From: Comamonas sp. lk
Lineage (GTDB): Bacteria; Pseudomonadota; Gammaproteobacteria; Burkholderiales; Burkholderiaceae_C
Assembly: GCA_945865675.1 (NCBI GenBank)
Contig: CAMBFO010000004.1
Location: 1 to 51,501, forward strand
Reading direction: 5' to 3'
Length of the DNA: 51,501 nucleotides
Shown here one piece after another: positions 31,693-51,501 of this stretch (position 1 is the first letter of the stretch; each line of letters begins with the position of its first letter). The notes below the pieces were generated by a model, which had not been told where the DNA came from, ran no database searches, and saw only the letters and a program-made list of their open reading frames with translations. Position numbers and translations under genes: made by a program.

Positions 31693-32781
<1,089 letters not shown>

Positions 32782-32846
32782 GGCTATCTCCTGTGCATAA
32801 AGGGTGGGGTTACTGGAGCAAACCAACCTCTGGGGTTAACTACAGG

Positions 32847-32862
32847 CTGGATGCTTGAACAG
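32847..32862 (-). promoter_or_regulatory. LexA/SOS box upstream of recA
   Basis: On the recA strand: CTGTTCAAGCATCCAG (CTG-N10-CAG), in TACTGTTCAAGCATCCAG context, closely resembling E. coli recA SOS box TACTGTATGAGCATACAG; 66 bp from the recA start. Confidence 0.8.
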
Positions 32863-32927
32863 TAGTTTATACGGATATTGAAACCTGTAAATAGAAATAT
32901 TGGTCAGTTTGTATTACCATATCCGAA

Positions 32928-33413
32928 ATGTCCGACACCCTGAACCTGACGCAAGATGCCTGGCGCTACAGCCATGTAGGCCATTGGCTGCGCTTGGCTT
33001 TGGAGCGCTTTGACGCGCGGGTGATGGCGCTGATGGCGCGCCACCCTGGTGTTTCCCTGGGTTTGTCCAATCTGGCGCAGCGCGGCCAGTTGACGGCGGC
33101 ACATTGGCATATCAGCCGCCACCTGCCGCCCCAGGGCGCCCGCCTGACCGAGTTGGCGCAGCGCGCGGGTATGCGTAAGCAGGCTATGGCCACGCTGGTC
33201 AAGCAGTGCGAGGCCTGGGGCATGGTGTTGCGCGAAGGCGATGCGCACGACGCACGGGCGCGCCGCGTGTGTTTTACACCCACCGGCCTGGCCTGGCTCG
33301 CGGCCTACCAGGAGAGCGTGGCCCAGGCCGAAGCCGAGTTGCGATACGCCGTGGGTGAGGAGGTAGCTACCGTGGTGGCGCTGGGCTTGGAAGCCTACGG
33401 CGCTGCCGCCTAG
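32928..33413 (+). CDS. MarR/winged-helix family transcriptional regulator
   Basis: QRGQLTAAHWHISRHLPPQGARLTELAQRAGMRKQAMATLVKQCEAWGMVLREGDAHDARARRVCFTPTGLAWL, MarR wHTH and wing. Confidence 0.85.
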   Translation: MSDTLNLTQDAWRYSHVGHWLRLALERFDARVMALMARHPGVSLGLSNLAQRGQLTAAHWHISRHLPPQGARLTELAQRAGMRKQAMATLVKQCEAWGMVLREGDAHDARARRVCFTPTGLAWLAAYQESVAQAEAELRYAVGEEVATVVALGLEAYGAAA

Positions 33414-33469
33414 AATGGGTTCACCAACGCACTGACCACACATAGCGCGCACAGCGCAAGGAGACAAGC

Positions 33470-34144
33470 ATGCGTATATTGATCGCCGAAGATGATCAGG
33501 TACTTGCCGACGGCTTGTTGCGTGCCTTGCGTAACGCCGGCGCCGCGGTAGACCATGTGGCCAACGGCAGCGAAGCCGACGCGGCCTTGATGACCAATTC
33601 CGAGTTTGATTTACTGATTCTGGACCTGGGCCTGCCCAAGATGCACGGCCTGGAGGTGCTCAAGCGCTTGCGCGCGCGTGGCTCCTCGCTGCCGGTTCTA
33701 ATTTTGACGGCTGCCGACAGTGTGGAAGAGCGCGTCAAAGGTCTGGATTTCGGCGCCGACGACTACATGGCCAAACCCTTTAGCCTGCAAGAGCTCGAAG
33801 CACGGGCGCGGGCCCTGGTGCGCCGCGGCATGGGAGCGGCCAGCAGCAATATCAAGCACGGTCCGCTGGTGTATGACCAATCGGGGCGGGTGGCGACCAT
33901 CGACGGCAAGATGGTGGAGCTGTCGGCGCGCGAGCTGGGCTTATTGGAAGTTCTGTTGCAACGCACAGGTCGGCTGGTGAGCAAAGACCAGCTGGTCGAG
34001 CGCCTGTGCGAATGGGGCGAAGAGGTGAGCAATAACGCCATTGAGGTCTATATCCACCGGCTGCGCAAGAAAATTGAAAAAGGCCCCATCCGCATCGCCA
34101 CCGTGCGCGGTTTAGGCTATTGCCTGGAAAAAATTCCGAATTGA
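33470..34144 (+). CDS. OmpR-family two-component response regulator
   Basis: MRILIAEDDQVLADGLLRALRNAG; LLILDLGLPKMHGLEVLKRLR; DDYMAKPF; C-terminal winged helix NAIEVYIHRLRKKI...VRGLGYCLEK. Confidence 0.95.
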   Translation: MRILIAEDDQVLADGLLRALRNAGAAVDHVANGSEADAALMTNSEFDLLILDLGLPKMHGLEVLKRLRARGSSLPVLILTAADSVEERVKGLDFGADDYMAKPFSLQELEARARALVRRGMGAASSNIKHGPLVYDQSGRVATIDGKMVELSARELGLLEVLLQRTGRLVSKDQLVERLCEWGEEVSNNAIEVYIHRLRKKIEKGPIRIATVRGLGYCLEKIPN

Positions 34145-35580
34145 AAGTCTTCCAAAGCGAGCAGCGATCGCTGTTCGGCGAAATTCTGGACTGGATGCTC
34201 ACGCCCATCCTGCTGCTGTGGCCGATCAGCCTGGTTCTGACTTGGCTGGTGGCCCAGGGCATCGCTGGCAAGCCGTTTGACCGTGCGCTGGAATACAACG
34301 CGGGGGTGCTGGCGCAATACATCACGGTCCATCACGAGCAATTGCAGTTCTCCTTACCCCAGCCCGCGCGTGAGTTGCTGCGCACCGAAGACAGCGACAC
34401 GGTGTACTACCAGGTGCTAGGGCCCCAAGGGCAGGTGCTAGCGGGTGATCCGGATTTACCAGCGCCCGTCCAGGATGAGCGCAACCCGGTGGGTGAAGTG
34501 CGTTTGCGCGATGTGACGCTGGCTGGTGTAGACCTGAAAGTCGCTTCGATGTGGGTGCGCCTGGACTTGCCGGGCCATCAGCTGGCGCTGGTACAGGTGG
34601 CCGAAACTATGGACAAGCGCGCCGTGCTGGCTACCGAGATCGTCAAGGGCGTGATGCTGCCGCAGTTTGTGGTCTTGCCGGTTGCGGTGCTGCTGGTGTG
34701 GCTGGCTTTGGCGCAAGCGATCAAACCACTCAACCGCCTGGAAGAAACCATACGCGCGCGCAAGCCCGATGACCTGAGCCCTCTGGACGCGCAGGCCGTA
34801 CCCATGGAGGTGGTGCCGCTGGTGGCCTCGGTGAACGATTTGCTTTTGCGTTTGAAAGATTCCATTGCCACGCAAAAGCGGTTTTTGGCCGATGCGGCGC
34901 ACCAGCTCAAAACACCGCTAGCTGGTTTGCGCATGCAGGCGGATTTAGCGCAACGCCAGGACGCCAGCGCCGATGAGCTCAAACAATCCTTGCGCCAGAT
35001 TGGCCGCTCCAGTATCCGTGCTACCCACACCGTCAACCAATTACTCGCCTTGGCGCGCGCAGAGAGCAGCGCTGCCGTATTGGCCCATCAGCCCTGCGAT
35101 ATGGCTCGACTGACCATGGACGTGGTGCGTGACTGCGCGCCGCGTGCGGTGGAAAAACAGATCGACATTGGCTACGAAGGGGCACAGCCGGGCAGCGCGG
35201 GCGTGAAGATCAACGGCAATGCCACGCTCTTACAAGAGATGGTCCGCAACCTGGTGGATAACGCGATCAACTACAGCCAATCGCGCACCGATGTTGCCGC
35301 CGTGATTACCGTGCGGGTGCTGGCCGACGCGGTGGCCAAGACATTGACCTTGCAAGTGGAAGACAGCGGCCCTGGGGTGGCGTTGAACGAGCAAGAGTTG
35401 GTGTTCCAGCCTTTTTACCGCGCCCTAGGCAATGAAGCCGACGGTTCGGGTCTGGGCCTACCCATTGTGCTGGAGATCGCCAGGCAACACCGCGCCAGCG
35501 TGGGCTTGAGCGACAGCCGCCCCGGCCATACGCCCCCAGGGGCCTGTTTTACGGTGCGGTTTGTCGATGTACTGCCGTGA
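34141..35580 (+). CDS. Two-component sensor histidine kinase (TctE/QseC-like); probable TTG start overlapping the response regulator stop
   Basis: FLADAAHQLKTPLAGLRMQADLA (H box), EMVRNLVDNAINYS (N), DSGPGVAL, GSGLGLPIVLEIARQH. Confidence 0.92.
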   Translation: MKVFQSEQRSLFGEILDWMLTPILLLWPISLVLTWLVAQGIAGKPFDRALEYNAGVLAQYITVHHEQLQFSLPQPARELLRTEDSDTVYYQVLGPQGQVLAGDPDLPAPVQDERNPVGEVRLRDVTLAGVDLKVASMWVRLDLPGHQLALVQVAETMDKRAVLATEIVKGVMLPQFVVLPVAVLLVWLALAQAIKPLNRLEETIRARKPDDLSPLDAQAVPMEVVPLVASVNDLLLRLKDSIATQKRFLADAAHQLKTPLAGLRMQADLAQRQDASADELKQSLRQIGRSSIRATHTVNQLLALARAESSAAVLAHQPCDMARLTMDVVRDCAPRAVEKQIDIGYEGAQPGSAGVKINGNATLLQEMVRNLVDNAINYSQSRTDVAAVITVRVLADAVAKTLTLQVEDSGPGVALNEQELVFQPFYRALGNEADGSGLGLPIVLEIARQHRASVGLSDSRPGHTPPGACFTVRFVDVLP

Positions 35581-35618
35581 ACGGCGTGGATAATCCGGCG
35601 TTTATTTAGGGGCCATGC

Positions 35619-36221
35619 ATGAAGCAAGACAGTAGCAAGCCGACCCGCAAGCTAAAGCCAATCCCCGGCCTGATATTTGCCAGCCGCTGGCTACAACTGC
35701 CGCTGTACTTGGGCCTCATTCTTGCGCAGGGCGTTTATGTCTACCACTTCTGGTTCGAGCTGCTGCACCTATTGGAGGCCGCTTTTGGCAACCAAGCGGC
35801 CTTACAGGCCCTGGTCACTAACATGGGGTACCAGTCGGAGGTGCCGCTGACTGCGCTCAATGAAACGCTCATCATGTTGGTGGTCTTGGCGCTGATTGAC
35901 GTCGTGATGATCTCCAACCTGCTCATCATGGTCATTGTGGGCGGCTACGAAACCTTTGTCAGCCGCATGCACCTGGAAGGCCATCCCGACCAGCCCGAGT
36001 GGCTAGACCATGTCAATGCCTCCGTGCTCAAGGTCAAGCTGGGCACGGCCATTATCGGCATCAGCTCCATCCATTTGCTCAAGACCTTTATCAACGCTGC
36101 CAACACCCCGCCCCACGTCATGATGTGGCAAACCATCATTCATGTGACTTTTTTGCTCAGCGCGCTGGCGATTGCCTACACCGACAAAATTTTAAGCAGC
36201 ACCAACAAGGCCTCTCACTAA
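35619..36221 (+). CDS. YqhA/UPF0114 (TIGR00645) family membrane protein
   Basis: [34 protein letters not shown]...[29 protein letters not shown]...[20 protein letters not shown]. Confidence 0.93.
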
Positions 36222-36242
36222 GCCTGTGGTGGCTTGGGCGGA

Positions 36243-36824
36243 TTAAAACTGGTCCGGGTTTTTACCCTTAAATGGCGCGTAAAAAGCCTTGATGCGAACC
36301 ATATCGGCCTCGATGTCGCCGGTGGGCTCAAATGCCGGGCCCAGGCCGCTGACCTTATTGCCGTAGTCCAGAAATGACATCACGATAGGCACTTGCGCGC
36401 CCAGGGCGATGTAATAAAAGCCGGTTTTCCAGTAGCGCACTTTGCTGCGCGTGCCCTCAGGCGGCACCACCAGTTGCACGGGCCCGTTTGCCGATTTCAG
36501 GGCCTCTGCCGAGGCTGCCACCAGATTGTTCGCGTTGGCGCGCTGCACCGCAATGCCGCCCAGCCAGCGCATCAGTGGGCCAAAGGGGAAGCGGAAAAGC
36601 TGCACCTTGCCCATCCAGTAAATATTCAAACCCAGCGCGAAGCTCACCATCAACATATAGGGCAAATCCCAGTTACTGGTGTGGGGCGCCGCAATCAGCA
36701 CGCTTTTGTGCCCATTGGGCGGCAGTTCGCCGACAATTTTCCAGCCCGTGGCCTTCAAAAAGCTTATCGAAATGACACGTAATAGGGTGTTAACCACCGG
36801 TGTATCAAAAATTGTGCGATGCAT
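36243..36824 (-). CDS. 1-acyl-sn-glycerol-3-phosphate acyltransferase-like (PlsC family) protein
   Basis: KSVLIAAPHTSNWDLPYMLMVSFALGLNIYWMGKVQLFRFPFGPLMRWLGGIAVQR; VPPEGTRSKVRYWKTGFYYIA. Confidence 0.88.
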   Translation of the reverse strand: MHRTIFDTPVVNTLLRVISISFLKATGWKIVGELPPNGHKSVLIAAPHTSNWDLPYMLMVSFALGLNIYWMGKVQLFRFPFGPLMRWLGGIAVQRANANNLVAASAEALKSANGPVQLVVPPEGTRSKVRYWKTGFYYIALGAQVPIVMSFLDYGNKVSGLGPAFEPTGDIEADMVRIKAFYAPFKGKNPDQF

Positions 36825-36850
36825 CGGTGGCCTAATCGGTGTATTGAAAG

Positions 36851-37801
36851 CTAAGGGGGTGGAGCGACCTCGTGGTCACCATCGGGGCGGTGGGCGGGGT
36901 CCACATGGGTCATGAGATTGAGTACGCGGTGGCGCTGCATGACGGCCTGGCGGGCAGCTACAGCAATGTTGTGGCCCTCTTCGACGGTAAGCATGGCATG
37001 GACTTCGATGTGCGCGTCGGCCACTACCATATCACCCATCTTACGGGTGCGTACATCATGCACACCGGCCACGCCGGGCGTGTCCAGCAGGGTTTGGCGG
37101 ATGGCCTGTACTTCATCCTCGTCCACCGCCCGGTCCATCAGGTCGTGCAAGGCGTCCCAGCCAAAGCCCCAGCCTATTTTGGCGACCATCAGGCCCACGA
37201 TCAGCGCCGCAATCGGGTCCATGAGCGGGTAACCCATCAGGTTGCCGATCAAACCCAAAGCCACCACCAGGCTGGAAGCCGCATCCGAGCGCGCATGCCA
37301 GGCGTTGGCCACCAGCATGCCCGACTTAACGCGCTTTGCGACGCGCAGCATATAGCGAAACAAGAGCTCTTTTGACACCAGGGCCGCTAGCGCCACCCAC
37401 AAGGCCGCCACATGGGCAGTGGGGATGGATTCGGGGGTTTGCAATTTACCCACTGCCGACCAGACCATGCCTACGCCCACAACCATCAGCAAGAGGCCCA
37501 GCGCCAGCGATGCCGCATTTTCAAAACGCTGGTGGCCGTAGGGGTGGTCTTCGTCGGCATCCTTTTGGCTGTGCCTTCCCGCCAGCAGCACCACAAAGTC
37601 CGACACCAAATCCGAGAGCGAATGGATGCCGTCCGCCACCAGGCCCTGGGACTTGGCCCCGATACCGACCACGATTTGCACAATGGAGAGCAGCACGTTG
37701 ACGACCACGCTCACCCAGGTACTGCGCGACGCCGCCGCCGCGCGTTGCGCCGGTGTGTACGTGCTGTGTTCTGAGTCGTCGTCTATTTCGGTGAAGTTCA
37801 T
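36851..37801 (-). CDS. Cation diffusion facilitator family transporter
   Basis: GLVADGIHSLSDLVSDFVVLLAGRHSQKDADEDHPYGHQRFEN; ANAWHARSDAASSLVVALG. Confidence 0.93.
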   Translation of the reverse strand: MNFTEIDDDSEHSTYTPAQRAAAASRSTWVSVVVNVLLSIVQIVVGIGAKSQGLVADGIHSLSDLVSDFVVLLAGRHSQKDADEDHPYGHQRFENAASLALGLLLMVVGVGMVWSAVGKLQTPESIPTAHVAALWVALAALVSKELLFRYMLRVAKRVKSGMLVANAWHARSDAASSLVVALGLIGNLMGYPLMDPIAALIVGLMVAKIGWGFGWDALHDLMDRAVDEDEVQAIRQTLLDTPGVAGVHDVRTRKMGDMVVADAHIEVHAMLTVEEGHNIAVAARQAVMQRHRVLNLMTHVDPAHRPDGDHEVAPPP

Positions 37802-37907
37802 AGTGGCTTAACAAGCACCACAGCGACGGCCCGCAAAGGCTCGCCGCTCGGGGTTTCCAAGCTGCTTGCTGCGCCAGAGCTTAGCAGTGTTGCTTGACGG
37901 GGGCCTT

Positions 37908-40892
37908 TCACCCCAGGTGCTTGCCAACAATCCCCGCCAGTTCAAACATATTGATGCTGGGTTTGCCAAATACCACCTGCAATTTGGCGTCGGCCAGGAT
38001 GGTGCGTTTGTCTTTGGGGTCTTGCAGGCCCTGGGCCTTGATGTAGTCCCACAGCTTTTTAACCACCTCGGGCCGCGACACCGCTTCACCGCCAATGACG
38101 GCCGCCAAGGCCGCACTGGGCGCTTTGCCTGCGGCCGTGCTGGCTTTACGCGGCGCCTTGGGCTTGGCGGTTTTGGTCGCCGCGCTTTTCTTGGCTGCAA
38201 CGCTCGCTTTTTTGGCCGCCGCTTTCGCCGCAGGCGATGCCGCCACAATGCGGCTGCGCGCCGCAGCCGCTTTGGCCACTGCACCGGGGCGCGGCGGGAA
38301 TTTACTAGGCGCAAACTCAAAATTCACTTTGCCTGCTTCAGCGTCCCAGGCCAGCATGGCCTTGAAGGCCCGGCGCGTGCGCATGCTGACAAACTTGTCC
38401 AGCAAATCGGTTTTGCCACTGGCCAGCAGCTTGCTCATTTGCTCGCGTGCGATCGGCTGTTGCAAGATGATCTGCCCACTTTTGAAGTCGCAGCTGGGAA
38501 CGGTTTGCACCAGGCTGGCGACCGCATGGTCACAGACATAGTTTTTACCGTGTTCAAACACCAGGCCGCCGGATTGGGCACCGCACTTGGGGCAGCCACC
38601 CAGCGGCTCTTGCGCGCTGAAATCGGCGAGCTCGCCGGACTCTTGCCCCGCTTTGTCGTCGCCGAAGTCAAATTCAAGTTTGAAGTTTTTGCTGTCTTCA
38701 TCAAACTTGAGCACGATCTCGGAAGTGAAAGGCCAACCCGCTTTGGAGCGAAAGCCATCGAGCGGACCGATTTTTTTCTCGCGCATGAATTGCTCTACTT
38801 CGGCCAGTTCAAAAGTGCGGCCTGCCGGTGTTTTGCCGAAGGAAAAACCGCAGCCCTCTTCGCTACCGGACTTGCCGGTGCAGGCGTAGCGGCGGTAGTT
38901 TTCTTTCACGATGCCGCCGCAATTGGGACAGGCGCTTTGCAAGGTGGCGTAGTCGCCGGGGATGGTGTCGCGGTCGTACTCTTTGGCTTTTTTCACCATG
39001 CGCTCGGTCATGGCGGCGATTTCGGCCATAAAGGTCGCACGCCCCATCTTGCCCTGCTCCATCAGCGACAGTTTGTATTCCCATTCACCGGTCAGTTCGG
39101 CCTTGGACAACTCTTCCACACCCAGGCCGCGCAAGAGCGTCATCAGCTGAAAGGCCTTGGCCGTCGGAATCAGCTCGCGGCCCTCGCGCAGCATGTATTT
39201 TTCGTTGAGCAAACCTTCAATAATGGACGAGCGCGTCGCGGGTGTGCCCAGACCTTTTTCGCGCATGGCTTCGCTGAACTCTTCGTCTTCTACGGTTTTG
39301 CCCGCGCCTTCCATAGCGCCTAGCAAAGTCGCTTCGGTGTAACGCGCTGGAGGCCGGGTTTTCAGGCCTTTGGCCTCGGCGCTGTCGGTGCGTACTTTTT
39401 CGCCGGGCTGCACCGGCACCAGGTTTTGGCCTTTGTCGCCGTCTTTGGCGTCATCGATTTCGGCGGCGGCTTCTTTGCCATAGACCGCCAGCCAGCCGGG
39501 TTCGACCAAGACCTTGCCCGTGGTTTTGAACTGGTGGCTTTGGTCGCCTCGTGTTACGGTGCTGATGCGCGTGGTGACTTGGTATTCGGCAGCGGGGAAA
39601 AACACGGCGATAAAGCGGCGCACCACAAAGTCATAGAGCTTTTGCTCGGCATCGGACAAGCCGCTGGGCGCTTCTAGCGTGGGGATGATGGCAAAGTGGT
39701 CGCTCACCTTGCTGTTGTCAAACACTTTTTTGCTGGGCTTGATGTAGTGCTTGGCGATCGCGGTGCGCGCAAATGGGGCCAGGTGGCCCATGCTGCTTTT
39801 GGCGAGCATGGCCATGGTGTCATTGACTGTGGGCAAATAGTCTTCGGGCAGGTGGCGCGAGTCGGTACGCGGGTAGGTCAGGGCTTTGTGCCGCTCGTAC
39901 AGGCTTTGCGCCAGCGCCAGCGTGGTCTTGGCGGAAAAGCCAAAGCGCCCGTTGGCCTCGCGCTGCAAAGTGGTCAGGTCAAACAGGCCGGGGCTGCTTT
40001 TATTACTGGGCTTGCTTTCTTCCTGCACACTGGCGGGTTGGCCGCGCACCGCATCGGCAATCGCCTGGGCCTGTGCTTGCGACCAGAGGCGGTCTTCTTT
40101 TTTCTCGGCGTCGTCAGTATCTTTTTTATGCGCCGGGTCAAACCATTTGGCCGGGTAGCTGCCCGCCTGCGCGGCGAACTCAGCATGGATTTCAAAATAA
40201 TCGCGGCTGATAAATTTGCGAATCTGCTCCTCGCGCTCCACTACCACCGACAGCGTGGGCGTTTGCACCCGGCCCACGGTGGTGAGAAAAAAACCGCCGT
40301 CGCGCGAATTGAAAGCCGTCATGGCGCGCGTGCCGTTGATGCCCACCAGCCAATCGGCCTCCGAGCGGCAGCGCGCAGCGTCGGCCAGGGGCTGCATTTG
40401 GGCGTTGGTGCGCAAATGCGCAAAGCCGTCGCGTATGGCTTGCGGCGTCATGGACTGCAGCCACAAACGGTTGACCGGCTTGCCCAAAGGCTTGGCACCG
40501 CCGGCGTATTGCTCAATCAAGCGGAAGATGAGCTCACCCTCGCGCCCGGCGTCGCAGGCGTTAATCAGCCGCGCCACGTCTTTGCGTTTGGCGAGTTTGA
40601 CGACTGCGTTGAGCCGCGTCTTGGTTTTGTCCACCGGCTTTAAATCAAAGTGCGGCGGAATCACGGGCAGGTGCGCAAAACTCCATTTGCCGCGCTTGAC
40701 GTCATAGGCCTCGGGCGCCTGTATCTCCACCAGATGGCCTACGGCACTGGAGACAACGTAGCTTTCGTTTTCAAAATACTCGTCGTGCTTCTCAAATTTG
40801 CCTGCGCTGCTTGTGAGCGCACGCACGATGTCCTGTGCAACCGACGGCTTTTCTGCAATGACCAAGGTCTTACCTGCAATATCGTTTTTCAT
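37908..40892 (-). CDS. topB: DNA topoisomerase III with H1-like Ala/Lys linker and C-terminal SWIB domain
   Basis: ORF trimmed to MKNDIAGKTLVIAEKPSVAQDIVRAL; DAGREGELIFRLI; TVGRVQTPTLS; LTYPRTDSRHLP; Zn-finger-like CPNCGG...; linker AKAAAKKASVAAKKSAATKTAKPKAPRKAS (38082-38294) and SWIB-like SRPEVVKKLWDYIKAQGLQDPKDKRTILADAKLQVVFGKPSINMFELAGIVGKHL (37908-38081). Confidence 0.94.
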   Translation of the reverse strand: MKNDIAGKTLVIAEKPSVAQDIVRALTSSAGKFEKHDEYFENESYVVSSAVGHLVEIQAPEAYDVKRGKWSFAHLPVIPPHFDLKPVDKTKTRLNAVVKLAKRKDVARLINACDAGREGELIFRLIEQYAGGAKPLGKPVNRLWLQSMTPQAIRDGFAHLRTNAQMQPLADAARCRSEADWLVGINGTRAMTAFNSRDGGFFLTTVGRVQTPTLSVVVEREEQIRKFISRDYFEIHAEFAAQAGSYPAKWFDPAHKKDTDDAEKKEDRLWSQAQAQAIADAVRGQPASVQEESKPSNKSSPGLFDLTTLQREANGRFGFSAKTTLALAQSLYERHKALTYPRTDSRHLPEDYLPTVNDTMAMLAKSSMGHLAPFARTAIAKHYIKPSKKVFDNSKVSDHFAIIPTLEAPSGLSDAEQKLYDFVVRRFIAVFFPAAEYQVTTRISTVTRGDQSHQFKTTGKVLVEPGWLAVYGKEAAAEIDDAKDGDKGQNLVPVQPGEKVRTDSAEAKGLKTRPPARYTEATLLGAMEGAGKTVEDEEFSEAMREKGLGTPATRSSIIEGLLNEKYMLREGRELIPTAKAFQLMTLLRGLGVEELSKAELTGEWEYKLSLMEQGKMGRATFMAEIAAMTERMVKKAKEYDRDTIPGDYATLQSACPNCGGIVKENYRRYACTGKSGSEEGCGFSFGKTPAGRTFELAEVEQFMREKKIGPLDGFRSKAGWPFTSEIVLKFDEDSKNFKLEFDFGDDKAGQESGELADFSAQEPLGGCPKCGAQSGGLVFEHGKNYVCDHAVASLVQTVPSCDFKSGQIILQQPIAREQMSKLLASGKTDLLDKFVSMRTRRAFKAMLAWDAEAGKVNFEFAPSKFPPRPGAVAKAAAARSRIVAASPAAKAAAKKASVAAKKSAATKTAKPKAPRKASTAAGKAPSAALAAVIGGEAVSRPEVVKKLWDYIKAQGLQDPKDKRTILADAKLQVVFGKPSINMFELAGIVGKHLG

Positions 40893-40911
40893 ATGACTAC
40901 AATCCATTTCC

Positions 40912-40960
40912 TCGCGCACGCACGGGCGCGCACCCACACGGGCGCACACATGCGCGCCCA
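40912..40960. repeat. Alternating purine-pyrimidine GC/CA-rich tract in the topB/SET divergent intergenic region
   Basis: TCGCGCACGCACGGGCGCGCACCCACACGGGCGCACACATGCGCGCCC. Confidence 0.6.
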
Positions 40961-40986
40961 TACGATCCACCATACCAAATTTTTCC

Positions 40987-41478
40987 GTGTCTCCAAAATC
41001 TGCCGCCTCGCCCCCTAAGCGCCGACTTGCAGTGCGCACCTCGGGCATCCACGGCAAAGGCGTTTTTGCATTGCGTGATTTTGCAGAAGGCGAAACCCTG
41101 ATCGAGTACCTGGGTGAAATCATCAGCTGGGAAGAAGCGCAAATACGCCATCCGCATGACCCCGCCAATCCCAACCACACGTTTTACTTCCATATCGATG
41201 ACACGCGTGTGATCGATGGCCTGCAACAGGGCAATGCGGCTAAGTGGATTAACCATTCCTGCGATGGTAATTGCGAAGCTGACGAGGTGCGGGGTCGCAT
41301 CTTCATCAAAGCGCTGCGCAACATCCAGGCTGGCGAAGAGCTGACCTACGACTACGGCCTGGTGACCGACGAGCCGCTCACGCGCAAGCTCAAAGCCCAA
41401 TACCCCTGCTGGTGCGGCAGCAAGCCATGCCGCGGCACCATGCTGGCCCCCAAACGCGCCAGTTGGCGCAAACGCTAA
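40987..41478 (+). CDS. SET domain-containing protein-lysine N-methyltransferase (GTG start)
   Basis: VRTSGIHGKGVFALRDFAEGETLIEYLGEIISWEEA; TFYFHIDDTRVIDGLQQGNAAKWINHSCDGNCEA; GEELTYDYGL; post-SET-like CWCGSKPCRGTML. Confidence 0.93.
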   Translation: MSPKSAASPPKRRLAVRTSGIHGKGVFALRDFAEGETLIEYLGEIISWEEAQIRHPHDPANPNHTFYFHIDDTRVIDGLQQGNAAKWINHSCDGNCEADEVRGRIFIKALRNIQAGEELTYDYGLVTDEPLTRKLKAQYPCWCGSKPCRGTMLAPKRASWRKR

Positions 41479-41484
41479 GCGGCC

Positions 41485-42273
41485 ATGGCAGGCGGAGTAC
41501 CCGCTGACAAGGCATTGCGCTGGCCGGCCGAAGCGGTCTGGGAGGCTGTGGAACCACTGCTGCTGGGCTTTAGCGTCGAGATCCTGCCCACCCTGCCTTC
41601 CACCAACACTGCGCTCATGGAGCGCGCACGCGCGGGCCGCGTCGATCCCATAGCCCTGGTGGCCGAGCAGCAAAGCGCAGGGCGTGGCCGCATGGGGCGG
41701 CAATGGCTAAGTGAGACGCAGGGCACGGGCCCGCTGCCCCTGACTTTTTCTATCGGCCTGCCCCTGGCGCCTCGTGACTGGTCGGGCCTGTCCTTGGCTG
41801 TGGGCCTGGCCGTAGCGCAAAGCCTGCACGCAGATATCCAATTGAAATGGCCCAATGATTTGTGGCTGCACGAGCGCAAGCTTGGCGGCATCCTCATTGA
41901 GACAGCCAGCATGGGCGCGCTGCGCTATGCAGTCATCGGCATAGGCATCAACATCGGACCGCGTGAAGCACAAGGCTTGCGCACCCCGCCGGCCTGGCTG
42001 CAAGAGCTCATACCGGATGCCGACGCGGCACAGGCATTCGGCCTGATTGCGCCGGCGGTGATCAAAGCGGTCTTGGATTTTGCCGACCAGGGCCTAGGCC
42101 TCTTGCATAGTGCCTACCGGGCGCGCGATGCGCTGCACGGGCGCGAGGTCCTGTGCAGCGATGGCCGCAACGGTGTTGCGCGCGGTGTGGATGCGCAAGG
42201 CGCTTTATTGTTGGAGACGGCGCAGGGCCTGCAAAAAATCAGCAGCGCTGAAGTCAGCGTGCGTCCTGCCTGA
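41485..42273 (+). CDS. birA: Biotin--[acetyl-CoA-carboxylase] ligase
   Basis: LPSTNTALMERARAG; VAEQQSAGRGRMGRQWLSETQGTGPLPLTFSIGLPL; LKWPNDLWLHERKLGGILIE; YAVIGIGINIG. Confidence 0.93.
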   Translation: MAGGVPADKALRWPAEAVWEAVEPLLLGFSVEILPTLPSTNTALMERARAGRVDPIALVAEQQSAGRGRMGRQWLSETQGTGPLPLTFSIGLPLAPRDWSGLSLAVGLAVAQSLHADIQLKWPNDLWLHERKLGGILIETASMGALRYAVIGIGINIGPREAQGLRTPPAWLQELIPDADAAQAFGLIAPAVIKAVLDFADQGLGLLHSAYRARDALHGREVLCSDGRNGVARGVDAQGALLLETAQGLQKISSAEVSVRPA

Positions 42274-42283
42274 AGCCTAGCAA

Positions 42284-42322
42284 GGCGCTCCGCCCGCAGC
42301 CTAAGCGGGCAGCAGGGCGCTT
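42284..42322. terminator. Bidirectional hairpin between convergent birA and gap
   Basis: CGCCCGC-AGCCTAA-GCGGGCA core with outer AAGGCGCT...AGGGCGCTT arms in the convergent intergenic region. Confidence 0.55.
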
Positions 42323-42331
42323 GTTATGAAC

Positions 42332-45440
<3,109 letters not shown>

Positions 45441-45555
45441 GAAACGACTCCGAGAGGGGCTGGGGGCATTGCGCCGGTCTGGCGCGCGAAAAAACATTTT
45501 AGCGGCGCATTGGCCGGCAGGACTTGAATGCTTGGCCAAGCTTAAGGCTGCGGTT

Positions 45556-45936
45556 TTAGCCGCGCCGCGCCATCGCTAGCGCATAGACTTGGCGCACGGC
45601 CTGGGCCAGTGCGCCTGGCGCAACGGGTTTGGCCAGCTGCAGGTCGGCTATTGCAGCTTGCGGATCCAAAGGATCGCCTTTCACGCGGGCCGACAAAATC
45701 AAAATACCAATAGCGGGGAACGATTGCCGCACACGCTTTGCAATCGCATATCCGTTTTCATGGGGAAGGTTCAAATCCAGTATTAGCGCGTCGGCAACCT
45801 GCGCTTGCAAGAGCAGATCCAAGGCAGCGCCATCGCTGGCGCTACGCACTGCAAAGCCCTCATCAAGCAAATACTCGGCAAGTGCTTCCCGGACGGCGGG
45901 GTTGTCTTCTACGATGATGATGTCGGCGAGCGGCAT
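45556..45936 (-). CDS. Receiver-domain-only response regulator
   Basis: [58 protein letters not shown]; ends after alpha5 with no output domain. Confidence 0.88.
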
Positions 45937-45978
45937 AGCACGAACTTGTGGTGTGGATCCCTACGCATGGCTTGCTTG

Positions 45979-47922
45979 TCAGGCACTTGTAGCCCCAGCG
46001 CTATCGACTGGCAAAGTGAACCAAAACACCACCTGTTCGGCTTCCAGGCTGAGTTGGATTGTGGTGCCAAGCCGCCAGGCCAGTTGCTGCGATAACCACA
46101 GCCCTAGACCGGTGCCAGAAATACTGCTAGTGGTGGGTGAGCGGTAGTAGCGTTCAAAAACTTTGGCCGGATCCGGATGGCCGGCGGGCCCTTTAACATT
46201 GCGGATGGCGAACTGGACCATGGGCGCGCCTTGCCCGCTTGCAAATTGGCTCACTTGCAAAAGGACGGGGCTGCCTTGCGCTGAATACTTCAGCGCATTA
46301 CTCAGCAGATTATTGAGAATGATCTGTAAATAGCTTGCATCACTGTGCAAGCGCAGATCGTCCATCGGCTTTTCAATGCGCAATTGCAGTAACTCGGATT
46401 GCGCACTGGAATGCACCCATGCCTGGCCCATGACCAAGTCCAGGGTATCTGTCAGTAAAAAATGACTGAGCGACACTGCCATCACACCGCCCTCGTAGCG
46501 ATCCGCCTGACTGCAGTTGTCCAAAACGTGCACCATGCTATTGATCGCCGTATGCATGCGCACATCCCAGGCTTGCTTACGCTCGGGAGCGATGTCCTTT
46601 TTCACCAACGCGCTGGTGCCCAATTGGACAACCGTCAAGGGAGTTTTGATTTCATGCACCAGCATCGAAATGAATAGCTGCTGCAAAAAGCGGATGCTGC
46701 TTTGTTCTTGCAGTTTTTGTACATTGGCCTGTCGCCTGCGGTCTTTCACTGATTGCGCCCTTTGCTGGCGCCAAAGCAGTGTCAACATCAAGCCAAAGGA
46801 GATCAGCGCCACGTTAATGGAGCGCAAGGGCTCGGCCCAGGCCAAGGGTATAGAGGACGCAAATAAATGGCTCCAGAGGCCCAGGTTGGTAGCCACCATA
46901 AGTAAAAACACGGCGACCAGTAGGTGGTTTAAGAAGCCTTTGCGCCAAGCGGGCGCTTGCAGCCACTGCCTCGCGCAATCCCAGCAAAAGCCGTAAAGCG
47001 CCACCGATAGCAAACCCACTGCAGCGAGATGGAACACGCCTTGCTGGGTGCTGTAGGCCAGGGCCGTCATCAGCAAGCTGCCCCCTAAGAGGGCAGAAAA
47101 GCCGCGCGCGTAAAGTAGCTTGAATCTCGGGGAAGCGAGCACCTTAGCGCTGGCATACAGTCCCGCACAGTCCAGGACCACCGTCATCGATGCATTGAGC
47201 TTGACAAAAGCACGCAAATCATCGCCCAGCAGGCCGGTAAAGGCGCCGCCCAGTTGTAAGTGGTAGAGCCCCGTAAGCAAGCCTAGCAAGCCCATCAGAA
47301 AAAAAGCCTTTTTCCCGCTTTGCCAGTACAGCAGGGTACTGGCTGCAAGCAGCAGCATAGAAAACGTCAGTTGCATTGCGTGCATGGCGCCGTCCGCAAG
47401 GCGCTGCTGCGCGAGTTCGCCGGCGTCTAAAACATCGGCTTCGAACCAGCCCATGCGATTACCGCTTACCCGGATCCAAATGAGAGCTTCGCCAGCGGGC
47501 ACGTCAAACCCGCGTAGCAAGCGCTTTCCCGTACGAACATCCTTTGCGTTCAGGGTGGTCATCGCTGGGGGAACTGTTTGCAAAGCTGGGTTGCCGTCTG
47601 CCACAGCGGGGTACTGCACGCCGACCGAGAGATCTTCGACATGGACCTGGCGCAGCGCAAGGTAGAGGTCTTCCCTTTCATGGCTATGGACACGCAGGCG
47701 CACCCACAGGGTGCCGGCGTCCAAGTCGCGCCGTATTACTTTGTCCGCTGCTTGCCACGCGGCGCTGTCAGCTGGCGGCAGGATGCCGGTATTGAGCTTG
47801 TCCTGCCATTGCAGGCGCTCTGTCACGCTGGCAGCGTGCACGGCTGTGAATGGGCACACCAACAAAGCGGCAAGCAGGAGGTGGGTCCAAAGTTTCATCA
47901 TGGTGAACGCGATTCTTGGCAA
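45979..47922 (-). CDS. 7TMR-DISM-type sensor histidine kinase
   Basis: Signal peptide, extracytoplasmic domain, seven predicted TM segments, then MLVHEIKTPLTVVQLG (H), ILNNLLSNALKYS (N), SGTGLGLWLSQQLAWRLG (G2). Confidence 0.87.
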   Translation of the reverse strand: MPRIAFTMMKLWTHLLLAALLVCPFTAVHAASVTERLQWQDKLNTGILPPADSAAWQAADKVIRRDLDAGTLWVRLRVHSHEREDLYLALRQVHVEDLSVGVQYPAVADGNPALQTVPPAMTTLNAKDVRTGKRLLRGFDVPAGEALIWIRVSGNRMGWFEADVLDAGELAQQRLADGAMHAMQLTFSMLLLAASTLLYWQSGKKAFFLMGLLGLLTGLYHLQLGGAFTGLLGDDLRAFVKLNASMTVVLDCAGLYASAKVLASPRFKLLYARGFSALLGGSLLMTALAYSTQQGVFHLAAVGLLSVALYGFCWDCARQWLQAPAWRKGFLNHLLVAVFLLMVATNLGLWSHLFASSIPLAWAEPLRSINVALISFGLMLTLLWRQQRAQSVKDRRRQANVQKLQEQSSIRFLQQLFISMLVHEIKTPLTVVQLGTSALVKKDIAPERKQAWDVRMHTAINSMVHVLDNCSQADRYEGGVMAVSLSHFLLTDTLDLVMGQAWVHSSAQSELLQLRIEKPMDDLRLHSDASYLQIILNNLLSNALKYSAQGSPVLLQVSQFASGQGAPMVQFAIRNVKGPAGHPDPAKVFERYYRSPTTSSISGTGLGLWLSQQLAWRLGTTIQLSLEAEQVVFWFTLPVDSAGATSA

Positions 47923-48100
47923 GTTCTGAGGTGCTGCAAGCGCTGCTAGCGCGTCCCGGCGTTCTAGGTGCTAACTGTAGCGTCAATCGCTCTGCGCCAT
48001 GTTGGCCGCTATCGCAGCTAAAGCCCAGGCAAGCCCGGGCCGGCCGCCTTGTAGGGCAAATCATTGCAAAATGCGCCTGATACCACTTTCGACCCATTGC

Positions 48101-49222
48101 ATGAGTACCTTGTTCTCCCCCTACACGCTGCGCGGCCCCGATGCCACACTGGTTTTGCCCAACCGCATCGTAGTTGCGCCCATGTGCCAATACGCTTGCA
48201 CAGAGGGCCAGGCAAATGACTGGCATTTGATGCATTGGGGCAATTTGCTCAATAGCGGCGCAGCCATGTTCACCATTGAGGCCACAGCCGTCGTACCCGA
48301 AGGCCGCATTACCCCGGCTTGCCTGGGTTTGTGGGACGAGGCCACCGAAGCGGCTTTGCGCACCCATTTGCACCGCGCCCGCAAGCTCGCGCCCGAAGTG
48401 GCGGTGTGCATTCAGCTGGCGCATGCCGGGCGCAAAGCTTCCAGCGCGGTGCCCTGGGCCGGTGGGCAGTTGCTGGCGAGCGCGCAGGGCGGCTGGCCCA
48501 CGCTTGGCCCTTCTGCACGGCCCCAATTGCCCCAAGAGCCGCCGCCCCAAGAAATGGACCGTGCCGCCATGGACCGGGTGCGTGATGCGTTTGTCCTGGC
48601 CGCCCAGCGTGCGCATGCCATGGGTGTCGACGCAATTGAAATCCACAGCGCGCATGGTTATTTGCTGCACGAGTTTTTGTCCCCGATCGCCAACCAGCGC
48701 CCTGACGCCTATGGCGGCAGTCTGGAAAACCGTATGCGCTTTCCGCTGGAAGTATTTGCGGCAGTGCGCAAGGCCTACGGCGGCGTGCTGGGTTTGCGCG
48801 TATCTGCCTCGGATTGGCTGGAGGGCGGCTGGGATTGCGCCCAAAGCACCGAGTTTGCTAGGCAGCTGCAGGCCTTGGGCTGCAGCTTTATCCACGTCTC
48901 CAGCGGCGGCGTGTCGCCGCAGCAAAAAATTGCGCTGGGGCCCAATTACCAGGTTGACTTTGCCTCGGACATTCGCAAAGCCGTGGGCATGCCCACCGTA
49001 GCGGTCGGCCTCATCACCCAGGCGCAGCAGGCCGAGGCGATATTGCAAGGAGGGGACGCCGATTTGATTGCGCTGGCACGTGCCTTTTTGTACCAGCCGC
49101 GCTGGGGCTGGCAGGCCGCTGCCGAGCTCGAAGGCCAAGTCGCCGCGCACCCGGCGTATTGGCGCTGCCTGCCGCGGCAGGCGCAATCGGTGTTTGGCAA
49201 GGTCAGTGTTGGCGGGCGCTAA
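48101..49222 (+). CDS. NADH:flavin oxidoreductase/NADH oxidase (Old Yellow Enzyme, YqjM-like)
   Basis: MSTLFSPYTLRGPDATLVLPNRIVVAPMCQYACTEGQANDWH; IQLAHAGRKAS; GVDAIEIHSAHGYLLHEFLSPIANQRPDAYGGSLENRMRFPLEV. Confidence 0.94.
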   Translation: MSTLFSPYTLRGPDATLVLPNRIVVAPMCQYACTEGQANDWHLMHWGNLLNSGAAMFTIEATAVVPEGRITPACLGLWDEATEAALRTHLHRARKLAPEVAVCIQLAHAGRKASSAVPWAGGQLLASAQGGWPTLGPSARPQLPQEPPPQEMDRAAMDRVRDAFVLAAQRAHAMGVDAIEIHSAHGYLLHEFLSPIANQRPDAYGGSLENRMRFPLEVFAAVRKAYGGVLGLRVSASDWLEGGWDCAQSTEFARQLQALGCSFIHVSSGGVSPQQKIALGPNYQVDFASDIRKAVGMPTVAVGLITQAQQAEAILQGGDADLIALARAFLYQPRWGWQAAAELEGQVAAHPAYWRCLPRQAQSVFGKVSVGGR

Positions 49223-49253
49223 GTCTTTGCGCGTGGCCCCGCGGGTACACGCC

Positions 49254-50048
49254 ATGCTGCTGGCGGCCGGGCGCGGCGAGCGCATGCGCCCGCTCACCGA
49301 TAACTGCCCCAAACCTTTGTTGGAGGTGCAAGGCAAAGCGTTAGCGCTTTGGCATCTGGACGCGCTGGCCCGTGCCGGCGTAGCGCGCACCGTGATCAAC
49401 ACTGCCTGGCTGGGCGGGCAGTTTGCGCCGCGCTTGGGTGCGCAGCACGAACCTCAGGGTGCCGCACCGCAAGCGCCCATGCCATTGTTGTATTCCCATG
49501 AAGGGCAGGATTTTGGTCAGGCCTTGGAAACTGCAGGCGGCATTGCGCGTGCACTGCCCCTGCTGTGCGAGGGCCTGGGCACCGACCCGATTTTTTGGGT
49601 GCTGGCCGGCGATGTGTATGCGCCAGACTTTGCCTTTGACGCCCAGGCCGTGGCGCGCTTTGCCGCCAGCGACAAGCTGGCCCATATTTGGCTGGTGCCC
49701 AATCCGCCGCACAACCCCCAAGGCGACTTTGGTTTAGGACTGGTCGATGCCAGTGACGCGCAGGCATCCGCATTGGCACTGAATGTGCCCGCCGATAGCC
49801 TTGAACCGCGCTCTACCTACAGCACCATCGGCCTGTACCGCTGCGCTTTGTTTGCGCCTCCTTGGTGCAATATTGCGCCGGGCAATCCGCAGGGCCTCAA
49901 AGCGCCGCTTGCGCCCCTGTTGCGCGCTGCGATGGACCAGGGCCTAGTGAGCGCCAGCCTGTACACCGGCCTTTGGACGGATGTGGGCACGCCAGAGCGC
50001 CTGCAAGCGCTCAACCATTCATCCACCTTGACACCTTCACACCTATGA
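49254..50048 (+). CDS. murU: Nucleotidyltransferase, N-acetylmuramate alpha-1-phosphate uridylyltransferase (MurU)-like
   Basis: MLLAAGRGERMRPLTDNCPKPLLEVQGKALALWHLDALARAGV; AGDVYAPDF; STYSTIGLYRCALF; GLWTDVGTPERLQAL. GTG at 49233 is an alternative start. Confidence 0.85.
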   Translation: MLLAAGRGERMRPLTDNCPKPLLEVQGKALALWHLDALARAGVARTVINTAWLGGQFAPRLGAQHEPQGAAPQAPMPLLYSHEGQDFGQALETAGGIARALPLLCEGLGTDPIFWVLAGDVYAPDFAFDAQAVARFAASDKLAHIWLVPNPPHNPQGDFGLGLVDASDAQASALALNVPADSLEPRSTYSTIGLYRCALFAPPWCNIAPGNPQGLKAPLAPLLRAAMDQGLVSASLYTGLWTDVGTPERLQALNHSSTLTPSHL

Positions 50049-51430
50049 ACACCATGCTGTACCACAACCGGCGCACCCAGGTGGCCGCCCAGATCGGCCC
50101 GCGCGGCCTGGCCATCGTGCCGACTGCGCCCGAGCAGCCACGCAACCGCGATGCCGATTTCCCCTACCGCTTTGACAGCTACTTTCACTATCTGTGCGGC
50201 TTTGCAGAGCCAGGGGCCTGGCTGGTGCTCACCGGCACAGGCAAAAGTATTTTGTTTTGCCAGCCCAAAGACTTGGAGCGTGAGACTTGGGACGGTTACC
50301 GCCTGGGGCCGCAAGCGGCACCTATCGAGTTGGGCGTGGACGAGGCCTATGCACTGTCCGAACTGGATGCCCGTCTGCCCGCCTTGCTCGATGGTTGCGA
50401 CAACGCCTGGTACCCGTTTGCCACGCATAGCGGCTTGGAAGCGCGTGTGCAAACCGCTTTGCAAAATCTGCGCGACCGCGTGCGTTACGGGACGCTGTGC
50501 CCCGGCGGGCAGCAAGACTTGTGCAGCGTGCTGGACGAAATGCGCTTGGTCAAAGACGCGCACGAGCAAGACACTATGCGCCGGGCTGGCCACATCAGCG
50601 CAGGCGCCCACATACGCGCCATGCAAACCAGCGCCCGCATGTTGCGCGCTGGCCAGGAGGTGCGCGAATACCACCTGGAGGCCGAGTTATTGCACGAGTT
50701 CCGCCGCCATGGGGCACAGTCGCCGGCCTATACCTCTATCGTGGCCGCCGGAGCTAATGCCTGCGTCTTGCACTACCGGGCCGATACCGCACTGGTGAGG
50801 GCTGGCGAACTGGTCTTGATCGACGCCGGTTGCGAGCTCGATGGCTATGCCTCGGACATCACCCGCACTTTTCCGGCCAACGGCAGCTTTACCGGACCGC
50901 AGCGCGCGCTCTACGAACTGGTACTAGCTTCACAAGTCGCGGCGATTGCTGCAACGCATGCTGGCGCGCGCTTTACCGATCCGCACGAGGCCAGCGTGGC
51001 GGTACTGGCCCAGGGTATGCTCGATGTGGGCTTGCTCGATAAAGACAAAGTGGGAACGGTGCAGGACGTGATTGAAAAGCGCGCCTATTTCCAGTTTTAC
51101 ATGCACCGCACCGGCCACTGGCTGGGGCGCGATGTGCACGACTGCGGCGCGTATACCGAGCCTTCGCAATTGGGTCACACCAGTATCCGCAAAGACGCGC
51201 TCACCGGCCAAGCGATTGTGGACCGGCCTGCGCGCATCTTGCGCCCGGGTATGGTCTTGACGATTGAGCCGGGCATTTATGTGCGGCCTGCGCCAGGCGT
51301 GCCAGAGCAGTTCCACCACATCGGTATCCGCATCGAGGACGATGCGATCGTGACCGAGCAGGGTTGCGAGTTGATCAGCCGTGGCGTGCCCGTCGAGCCC
51401 GATGCCATCGAAGCTTTAATGCGCGCCTAG
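50045..51430 (+). CDS. pepP: Xaa-Pro aminopeptidase (aminopeptidase P)
   Basis: MNTMLYHNRRTQVAAQIGPRGLAIVPTAPEQPRNRDADFPYRFDSYFHYLCGFAEPGA; IDAGCELDGYASDITRTFP; HRTGHWLGRDVHD; LTIEPGIYV; IGIRIEDDAIVTEQGCELIS. Confidence 0.95.
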   Translation: MNTMLYHNRRTQVAAQIGPRGLAIVPTAPEQPRNRDADFPYRFDSYFHYLCGFAEPGAWLVLTGTGKSILFCQPKDLERETWDGYRLGPQAAPIELGVDEAYALSELDARLPALLDGCDNAWYPFATHSGLEARVQTALQNLRDRVRYGTLCPGGQQDLCSVLDEMRLVKDAHEQDTMRRAGHISAGAHIRAMQTSARMLRAGQEVREYHLEAELLHEFRRHGAQSPAYTSIVAAGANACVLHYRADTALVRAGELVLIDAGCELDGYASDITRTFPANGSFTGPQRALYELVLASQVAAIAATHAGARFTDPHEASVAVLAQGMLDVGLLDKDKVGTVQDVIEKRAYFQFYMHRTGHWLGRDVHDCGAYTEPSQLGHTSIRKDALTGQAIVDRPARILRPGMVLTIEPGIYVRPAPGVPEQFHHIGIRIEDDAIVTEQGCELISRGVPVEPDAIEALMRA

Positions 51431-51433
51431 ACC

Positions 51434-51501
51434 ATGGCGTGCAGGCAAACCCGTTTTTGTTGTGGCTTGCTGGTCTTGCTGGCAGCGCACTTGGGTGCGC
51501 A
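51434..51501 (+). CDS. Putative exported protein, partial (N-terminus only, runs off window)
   Basis: ATG at 51434: MACRQTRFCCGLLVLLAAHLGA..., signal-peptide-like hydrophobic stretch. Confidence 0.35.
   Translation, partial: MACRQTRFCCGLLVLLAAHLGA

Follow-up and report, generated by a model that had tools for sequence, protein, structure and literature searches.

Bacteria that carry a SET-domain protein together with SWIB proteins and a type IA topoisomerase fused to SWIB have been described in the Chlamydiae, in which cpnSET/NUE, the SWIB proteins and the TopA-SWIB fusion have already been proposed to act as a chromatin-modifying set (PMC6426960). SET proteins have also been described from Burkholderia. 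BtSET of Burkholderia thailandensis is reported to mono- and dimethylate H3K4 on free histones and to be a type III (secreted) effector (PMC3980110), and BurB, an enzyme of 172 amino acids, converts methionine to S-methylmethionine (PMC12542666). As for the topoisomerase, the fusion of TopB to SWIB is a known NCBI family (PRK14724/NF011313), whose description covers the fusion but neither a link to SET nor a tract in the adjacent spacer. Near promoters, where divergent transcription is expected to concentrate supercoils, alternating CG/CA tracts that can form Z-DNA are also known (PMC3024258); in beta-proteobacteria, tracts of this sort are under-represented in general (PMC4060949).

The locus described here lies in a window of 51,501 nucleotides from Comamonas sp. 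lk (the whole stretch of DNA that was analysed). Like the Chlamydiae, it brings together SET, SWIB and the fusion of SWIB to a type IA topoisomerase, but the topoisomerase is TopB and not TopA, the genes are adjacent, SWIB is dispensable for the linkage, and there is no demonstrated substrate of the Hc1 type. Its features are as follows.

37908..40892, minus strand: topB, DNA topoisomerase III, 994 aa (NF011313; Topoisom_bac, Toprim, Toprim_Crpt and SWIB)
37914..38120, minus strand: SWIB domain of TopB, residues 925-993 (Pfam, E 2.9e-25)
38121..38279, minus strand: Ala/Lys-rich, H1-like linker of TopB, approximately residues 872-924 (read from the translation)
40893..40986, no strand: intergenic spacer of topB and SET, kept as non-coding DNA in relatives
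40898..40903, plus strand: TACAAT, -10-like box toward SET (sequence match only)
40913..40957, no strand: alternating purine/pyrimidine (Z-DNA-prone) tract (alternation scan)
40973..40983, no strand: TACCAAATTTT box (TASCAAANTT), putative topB promoter or operator (sequence match only)
40987..41478, plus strand: SET-domain protein of MLL1/BtSET type, predicted protein-lysine methyltransferase, 163 aa, GTG start (PF00856)
41053..41358, plus strand: SET domain core, with NHSC (residues 89-92) and ELTYDY (residues 118-123) (motifs)
41407..41430, plus strand: post-SET cysteine cluster C141/C143/C148, with C96 a predicted zinc site (203/203; C96 200/203)
41485..42273, plus strand: birA, biotin protein ligase, third conserved member of the block (profile match; neighbourhood comparison)

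The conserved block of topB, SET and birA

The initial annotation had described a TopB ending in an Ala/Lys-rich linker and a SWIB domain, and across about 94 bp a divergent, compact SET protein with GEELTYDYG and post-SET cysteines. Both descriptions hold: NF011313 matches TopB over its full length, SWIB included (1892.6 bits against a cut-off of 1088), so that the protein itself does not differ from that family; PF00856 matches the SET protein (E 1.3e-24, 87.1 bits against a gathering cut-off of 22.4), whose translation contains the motifs named; and the two start codons lie 94 bp apart. The nearest solved structure to the SWIB domain is yeast UAF30. The annotation further inferred that the two genes form a functional unit and called for the conservation of the neighbourhood to be checked. 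We examined 151 genomes of the window's family, from 112 genera, and collected TopBs across the family with the family model. SET was present in 142 of these genomes, and topB and SET were divergent neighbours in 138 of the 139 scorable genomes carrying both, as well as in all 77 testable named loci of Comamonadaceae type. The pairing thus extends far beyond close relatives, the named members including Rhodoferax, Limnohabitans, Ramlibacter, Variovorax, Curvibacter and Polaromonas, and many of the named relatives with SET are free-living freshwater or soil genera.

SWIB, on the other hand, is missing from 71 of the 138 TopBs that adjoin SET, and because about half of the linked TopBs do without it, the coupling of SWIB to SET has to be rejected; the locus thus does not show the linkage of these two that a chromatin module like that of Chlamydia would call for. 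Outside the family, standalone SWIB is common, with SET located elsewhere, and no TopB-SWIB fusions were found there. SWIB is entirely missing from one group that has both SET and topB. SWIB on TopB is a later addition. In the PRTRC element of one relative (L038), a single SET stands beside a standalone SWIB. No plasmid record appeared in both the SET and the SWIB matches, among the matches listed (for SET, the best 25 of 47).

The birA gene, which the initial annotation did not mention, begins 6 bp past the stop codon of SET, with which it is likely co-transcribed. It lies downstream of SET in 89 of 89 cases, a linkage as tight as that of topB, and in genomes that have cleanly lost SET, topB directly abuts birA, while the outer neighbours of the block are only loosely kept. 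In our reading, the family has inherited this block vertically, with topB divergent from SET-birA. Since SWIB is so often absent, birA is equally fixed, topB abuts birA after SET loss, and the lysine-rich tail of TopB is found whether or not SET is present (see below), the conserved unit is topB with SET-birA and not SWIB with SET. What survives of the proposed functional unit is the adjacency of topB and SET, the preserved catalytic residues of SET and the shared, conserved 5′ spacer. We found no report of the topB/SET pair in the open-licence literature.

The same observations bear on another explanation, to which we give close to even odds, namely that SET is an accessory lysine methyltransferase of an ordinary kind, with a different cytosolic substrate, and that only a shared regulatory region and an operon keep it between topB and birA. 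The constant birA linkage and the clean losses agree with this, as do the many unrelated gene contexts in which SET occurs elsewhere in the order and its retention under purifying selection (dN/dS = 0.076). It accounts less well for the repeated occurrence of SET near topoisomerase genes, in three arrangements. In other families SET directly follows gyrB and/or adjoins topB, and in 15 of 46 non-family genomes it lies within approximately 13 kb of topB.

The SET enzyme and its possible substrates

The window SET is predicted to be a catalytically intact lysine methyltransferase of the MLL1/BtSET kind. Its NHxC SAM-binding motif, catalytic tyrosine and post-SET cysteines are invariant in 203 homologues, and its nearest solved structure, by sequence and by fold, is MLL1/KMT2A, with which it shares the catalytic and post-SET residues. 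Unlike KMT2A/MLL1, it is a single small domain without MLL complex partners, and the Pfam and NCBIfam profiles reveal no domain beyond SET. It probably acts on one or several lysine-rich proteins of the cell itself.

Two described SET proteins suggest other roles, both of which we consider most unlikely. The first is that of a secreted, host-directed effector, as in BtSET, which we liken to the window SET by description, or LegAS4. A weak match to the NCBIfam AnkI/LegAS4 family (NF043024) points in this direction, as does the reported secretion of BtSET, but the score of 34.7 bits is far under the equivalog cut-off of 550, there are no extra domains, and a gene found in nearly all family genomes, many from free-living genera, is hardly what one would expect of an effector. 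The second is that of a small-molecule methyltransferase like BurB, which is of similar size. Against it, the complete post-SET cysteine cluster and the MLL1-like fold are as in peptide-lysine methyltransferases, and BurB was absent from the 60 best PDB sequence matches to the window SET.

The initial annotation had proposed that SET methylates lysines in the TopB linker or in another H1-like tail, tuning topoisomerase III and nucleoid topology. The TopB tail is a candidate target: TopBs beside SET commonly have lysine-rich tails, SET and topB are nearly always adjacent in the family, SET lies after gyrB and/or beside or near topB in some genomes outside it, and the tyrosine at the F/Y switch of SET predicts mono- or dimethylation. 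Nevertheless, we regard this explanation as improbable. Within the family, the lysine-rich tail is found both with and without SET (in five of seven SET-less TopBs lacking SWIB and in both SET-less fused ones), and such tails are widespread outside it, while in another family, in which SET is convergent to topB, the TopB tail has a single lysine. Joint loss of tail lysines and SET was seen in one genus only (G354/G451) and was set aside, as the tree shows no association of the two, with too few pairs for power. The equal linkage of birA and the SWIB-less group with SET and topB also argue against it.

An alternating tract in the spacer

No other 45 bp of the window alternate as strongly as the tract between the two start codons, although it is interrupted (86% alternating, longest strict run 16). 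Tract scores of at least 15 were found in 182 of 191 topB-SET spacers of the family, but in just 1% and 8% of the regions used as controls; the strict alternating run has a median of 21 bp, compared with 7 bp for random sequence, and it reaches at least 16 bp in 172 of the 191 spacers versus 0.3% of random sequences. The tract is also rare in the genome. In 23 of 28 genomes, preselected for a spacer run of at least 26 bp, no strict run of that length occurs outside the spacer, and 44 of 50 non-family genomes have no such run. Outside the family, the tract was absent from nearly all the regions checked upstream of SET or topB. Its presence is independent of SET and SWIB, being kept upstream of topB in six of eight SET-less genomes, and on the TopB tree it shows five changes in all, with the tract missing from the basal lineages and lost in about four lineages.

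The tract is under selection for alternation. In 48 disjoint pairs of sister genomes, its letters diverge while the alternation is preserved, with a transition to transversion ratio of 133:31 within the tract versus 102:124 in the flanks (p 5e-13). The ratio at fourfold-degenerate sites was 513:1027, and at those in alternating context 236:190 (p 3e-9). CpG-type mutation bias is only partly controlled. Of the properties that we ask of a Z-DNA regulatory element, the tract thus shows alternation beyond chance and selection for it.

Two promoter-like boxes, both sequence matches only, face each other across the tract. Of the 182 family spacers, 130 have the -10-like box to the left of the tract (1.5% expected from shuffles), and 63 have the TACCAAATTTT box, at 15 bp from the core of the tract (IQR 15-16). 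A standard consensus promoter scan found no promoter. A long upstream extension of SET was rejected, given that the spacer frame is broken by indels among relatives. The conserved boxes, at near-constant spacing, are compatible with a degenerate binding site, a hairpin or cruciform, or an RNA element where the 5′ leaders overlap, in place of a B-Z switch, as is the excess of words such as GGCACGC over alternation-preserving shuffles. We think such an element somewhat unlikely, since alternation is kept while the sequence diverges, and since RNA folding gave z values of only -0.5 and -0.2 versus alternation-preserving shuffles; an RNA hairpin in the leader was rejected on the latter ground.

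A possible response to chromosome torsion

The reading that we prefer, with a probability of about 0.45, is that the spacer tract is a promoter element through which topB, SET-birA or both respond to supercoiling. At high negative superhelicity, it would flip from B- to Z-DNA and absorb supercoils, and the flip could alter how transcription from one or both promoters starts or first elongates. Topoisomerase III, and perhaps SET-birA too, would thereby respond to the torsional state. With energies of the Z-Hunt type, the threshold for the window tract is estimated at about sigma -0.041 for a domain of 5 kb. A (CG)7 run at 22983, within a gene, has a similar estimated threshold, and the window tract is therefore not thermodynamically unique here. 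More tentatively, the spacer may be a dedicated supercoiling sensor, that is, a B-Z switch between facing promoters that would couple topoisomerase III and a histone-methylase-like enzyme to chromosome torsion, and that the family would have gained once and retained through selection for alternation and not for sequence. The unusual pattern of the spacer suggests such a sensor of DNA twist in preference to the chromatin-like methylation unit of the initial annotation.

The window spacer resembles the promoter-proximal alternating tracts already known (PMC3024258), but in this family the tract is conserved family-wide, nearly unique in the genome and placed upstream of a topoisomerase gene. We found nothing in the open-licence literature on Z-DNA at topoisomerase promoters. 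Whether Z-DNA has a regulatory role in bacteria has long been asked, and a natural tract of this kind, in which selection on alternation is measurable from sequence, makes the question directly testable in culturable Variovorax, Limnohabitans and Ramlibacter. The locus also points to a free-living lineage of about 100 genera in which a predicted SET lysine methyltransferase has stayed next to a topoisomerase gene, and which is a better hunting ground for the native substrate of a bacterial SET protein than an obligate pathogen.

Conservation of the topB and SET neighbourhood

The locus comprises the following features:

37908-40892, minus strand: topB, topoisomerase III, 994 aa, a full-length match to NCBIfam NF011313/PRK14724
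TopB residues 925-993: SWIB domain (Pfam), C-terminal to an Ala/Lys-rich linker
40987-41478, plus strand: SET gene, 163 aa, GTG start, containing a SET domain, the NHSC and ELTYDY motifs and post-SET cysteines

Family and Pfam matches, the motifs and the 94 bp between the two start codons bear out the coordinates and domains proposed for both genes in the initial annotation. The TopB-SWIB fusion is not new, as it is already a curated family (NF011313/PRK14724). The birA start lies 6 bp after the SET stop.

Among 80 named loci from the genome collection, by title mostly Comamonadaceae-type organisms, topB was divergent from and adjoining SET in all 77 testable cases, SWIB was fused to TopB in 55 of 55, and birA lay downstream in 79 of 79. 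A wider family sample of 151 genomes (112 genera), in which adjacency was scored on the match coordinates of SET and TopB, contained TopB in every genome and SET homologues in 142. The two genes were divergent neighbours in 138 of the 139 scorable genomes having both (135 directly and three with split TopB hits), the sole exception being the divergent genome G440. The pairing is real and old, reaching well beyond close relatives. SWIB was present on TopB in 67 of the 138 SET-adjacent cases and absent from 71, a tally that includes one genome assigned from its TopB sequence, and therefore the proposed SWIB-SET "chromatin unit" does not hold as a conserved entity. All 89 loci examined have birA after SET, and topB abuts birA in the seven SET-less genomes where both lie on one stretch. 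This makes topB|SET-birA the conserved unit, and SET is cleanly removable from it; on the TopB tree its loss takes a minimum of four changes. Outer neighbours are only loosely kept among the family loci compared, and the block thus holds together more closely than the genes around it.

Within the order sample, the window's family alone showed TopB-SWIB fusions, and standalone SWIB is common elsewhere. Neither topB nor birA lay beside SET in 20 non-family SET loci with 1.5-kb flanks. Of 46 non-family genomes carrying both genes, 15 had SET no more than about 13 kb from topB, two of them counted across the origin with the chromosome taken as circular. In one other family, SET is immediately 3′ of gyrB and convergent with topB (in locus L037, G041:C2, 4846-10344, the three genes mutually adjoin), and in a group of small genomes SET directly follows gyrB, beginning a few bases past it in L143. 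That SET recurs near topoisomerase genes in differing arrangements is suggestive, but part of the proximity can be explained by a common origin-proximal neighbourhood. Separately, a PRTRC-type mobile region (L038, G015:C99, 4631-12541; PRTRC A, ThiF, D and a XerC-like recombinase) harbours a divergent SET gene facing a standalone SWIB gene in convergent orientation.

The window is one entire contig of a 2.7-Mb assembly of 169 contigs. Another contig of that assembly (L041, G000:C7:1-19126) is a syntenic copy of 32179-51501, 92.5-93% identical, so that these genes occur in redundant copies; the simplest explanation of the second copy is another strain binned together with the first. The same genome encodes a standalone SWIB protein (G000:C48:13239-13457) and a third, distant SET-domain gene (G000:C64:1158-1466).

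The SET enzyme and the TopB tail

The catalytic and zinc-binding residues of SET are invariant or nearly so among 203 homologues, and dN/dS between the window strain and the second strain is 0.076. The predicted fold (pLDDT 85) is nearest MLL1, also in its histone-peptide-bound form (TM about 0.7, identity up to 39%). A Tyr at the F/Y switch of SET enzymes leads to mono- or dimethylation, and since the window protein has this Tyr, we infer the same products for it. This predicted state matches the mono- and dimethylation reported for BtSET, the SET protein of Burkholderia thailandensis (PMC3980110). BurB, a Burkholderia SET enzyme, methylates free methionine (PMC12542666), and the domain alone thus leaves the substrate class uncertain.

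A Lys/Ala-rich C-terminus is old, being found on most TopBs across the order irrespective of SWIB and of SET. In one SET-less genus (G354, G451) the tail is Arg-rich and has no Lys; lysines are retained in other SET-less lineages. In family f6, TopBs convergent with SET carry just one Lys in the tail. Independent-pair counts on the TopB tree, with too few pairs for power, gave no association between tail and SET. Methylation of the TopB tail by SET is therefore possible, as judged from these sequences, but is not favoured by the distribution of the tail.

An alternating tract in the spacer

Purine/pyrimidine alternation in the window peaks within the spacer, over the 45 bp at 40913-40957 (86%, against a mean of 54%), and this copy of the tract is less perfect than those of most relatives. 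Of 191 family spacers, 182 reach a Z-DNA-type score of 15 or more, compared with 1 of 89 control regions after the SET stop and 8% of those after the topB stop. The median length of the longest strictly alternating run is 21 bp, and runs of at least 16 bp occur in 172 of the 191 spacers versus 0.3% of random sequences. A whole-genome search found no second run of at least 26 bp in 23 of 28 genomes with such a run in the spacer, which, as these were picked for tract length, shows rarity elsewhere and not long-tract frequency; 44 of 50 non-family genomes had no run of this length.

Transitions preserve purine/pyrimidine alternation. In 48 disjoint sister pairs, transitions and transversions numbered 133:31 in the tract and 102:124 in its flanks (p 5e-13), compared with 513:1027 at topB 4-fold sites and 236:190 at 4-fold sites in alternating context (p 3e-9). 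This excess points to selection on the alternating pattern rather than on the letters.

The tract is kept upstream of topB in six of eight SET-less genomes; outside the family, nearly all regions checked upstream of SET or topB lacked it. On the TopB tree, where five changes in all suffice for its history, basal family lineages do not have it, though topB and SET already adjoin in all but G440. Of 182 spacers, 130 have TACAAT flanking the tract on the side nearer topB, and 63 have TASCAAANTT on the opposite side at a near-constant 15 bp; these motifs may be two facing promoters. RNA folding did not exceed that of alternation-preserving shuffles.

A possible response to supercoiling

Alternating CG/CA tracts are known to convert to Z-DNA under negative superhelicity, a stress that divergent transcription concentrates (PMC3024258). 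Such patterns were found in one survey to be suppressed in beta-proteobacteria (PMC4060949), which makes the upkeep of the tract here more notable. An approximate estimate with Z-Hunt-type dinucleotide energies places the flip of the window's tract near sigma -0.041 for a 5-kb domain, behind only a (CG)7 run elsewhere in the window, which suggests a plausible, not exceptional, Z-former. That run lies at 22983-22996, inside an M48 peptidase gene (21649-23328), and its estimated B-Z threshold is lower than any other in the window.

The simplest reading of the tract is that of a putative supercoiling-responsive element, in which divergent topB and SET transcription would concentrate superhelical stress at the spacer and the tract would convert to Z-DNA under the resulting negative superhelicity. 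The alternating tract, apparently under selection and lying in the putative promoter region shared by topB and SET-birA, is the new finding, and is better supported than the SWIB-SET "chromatin unit".
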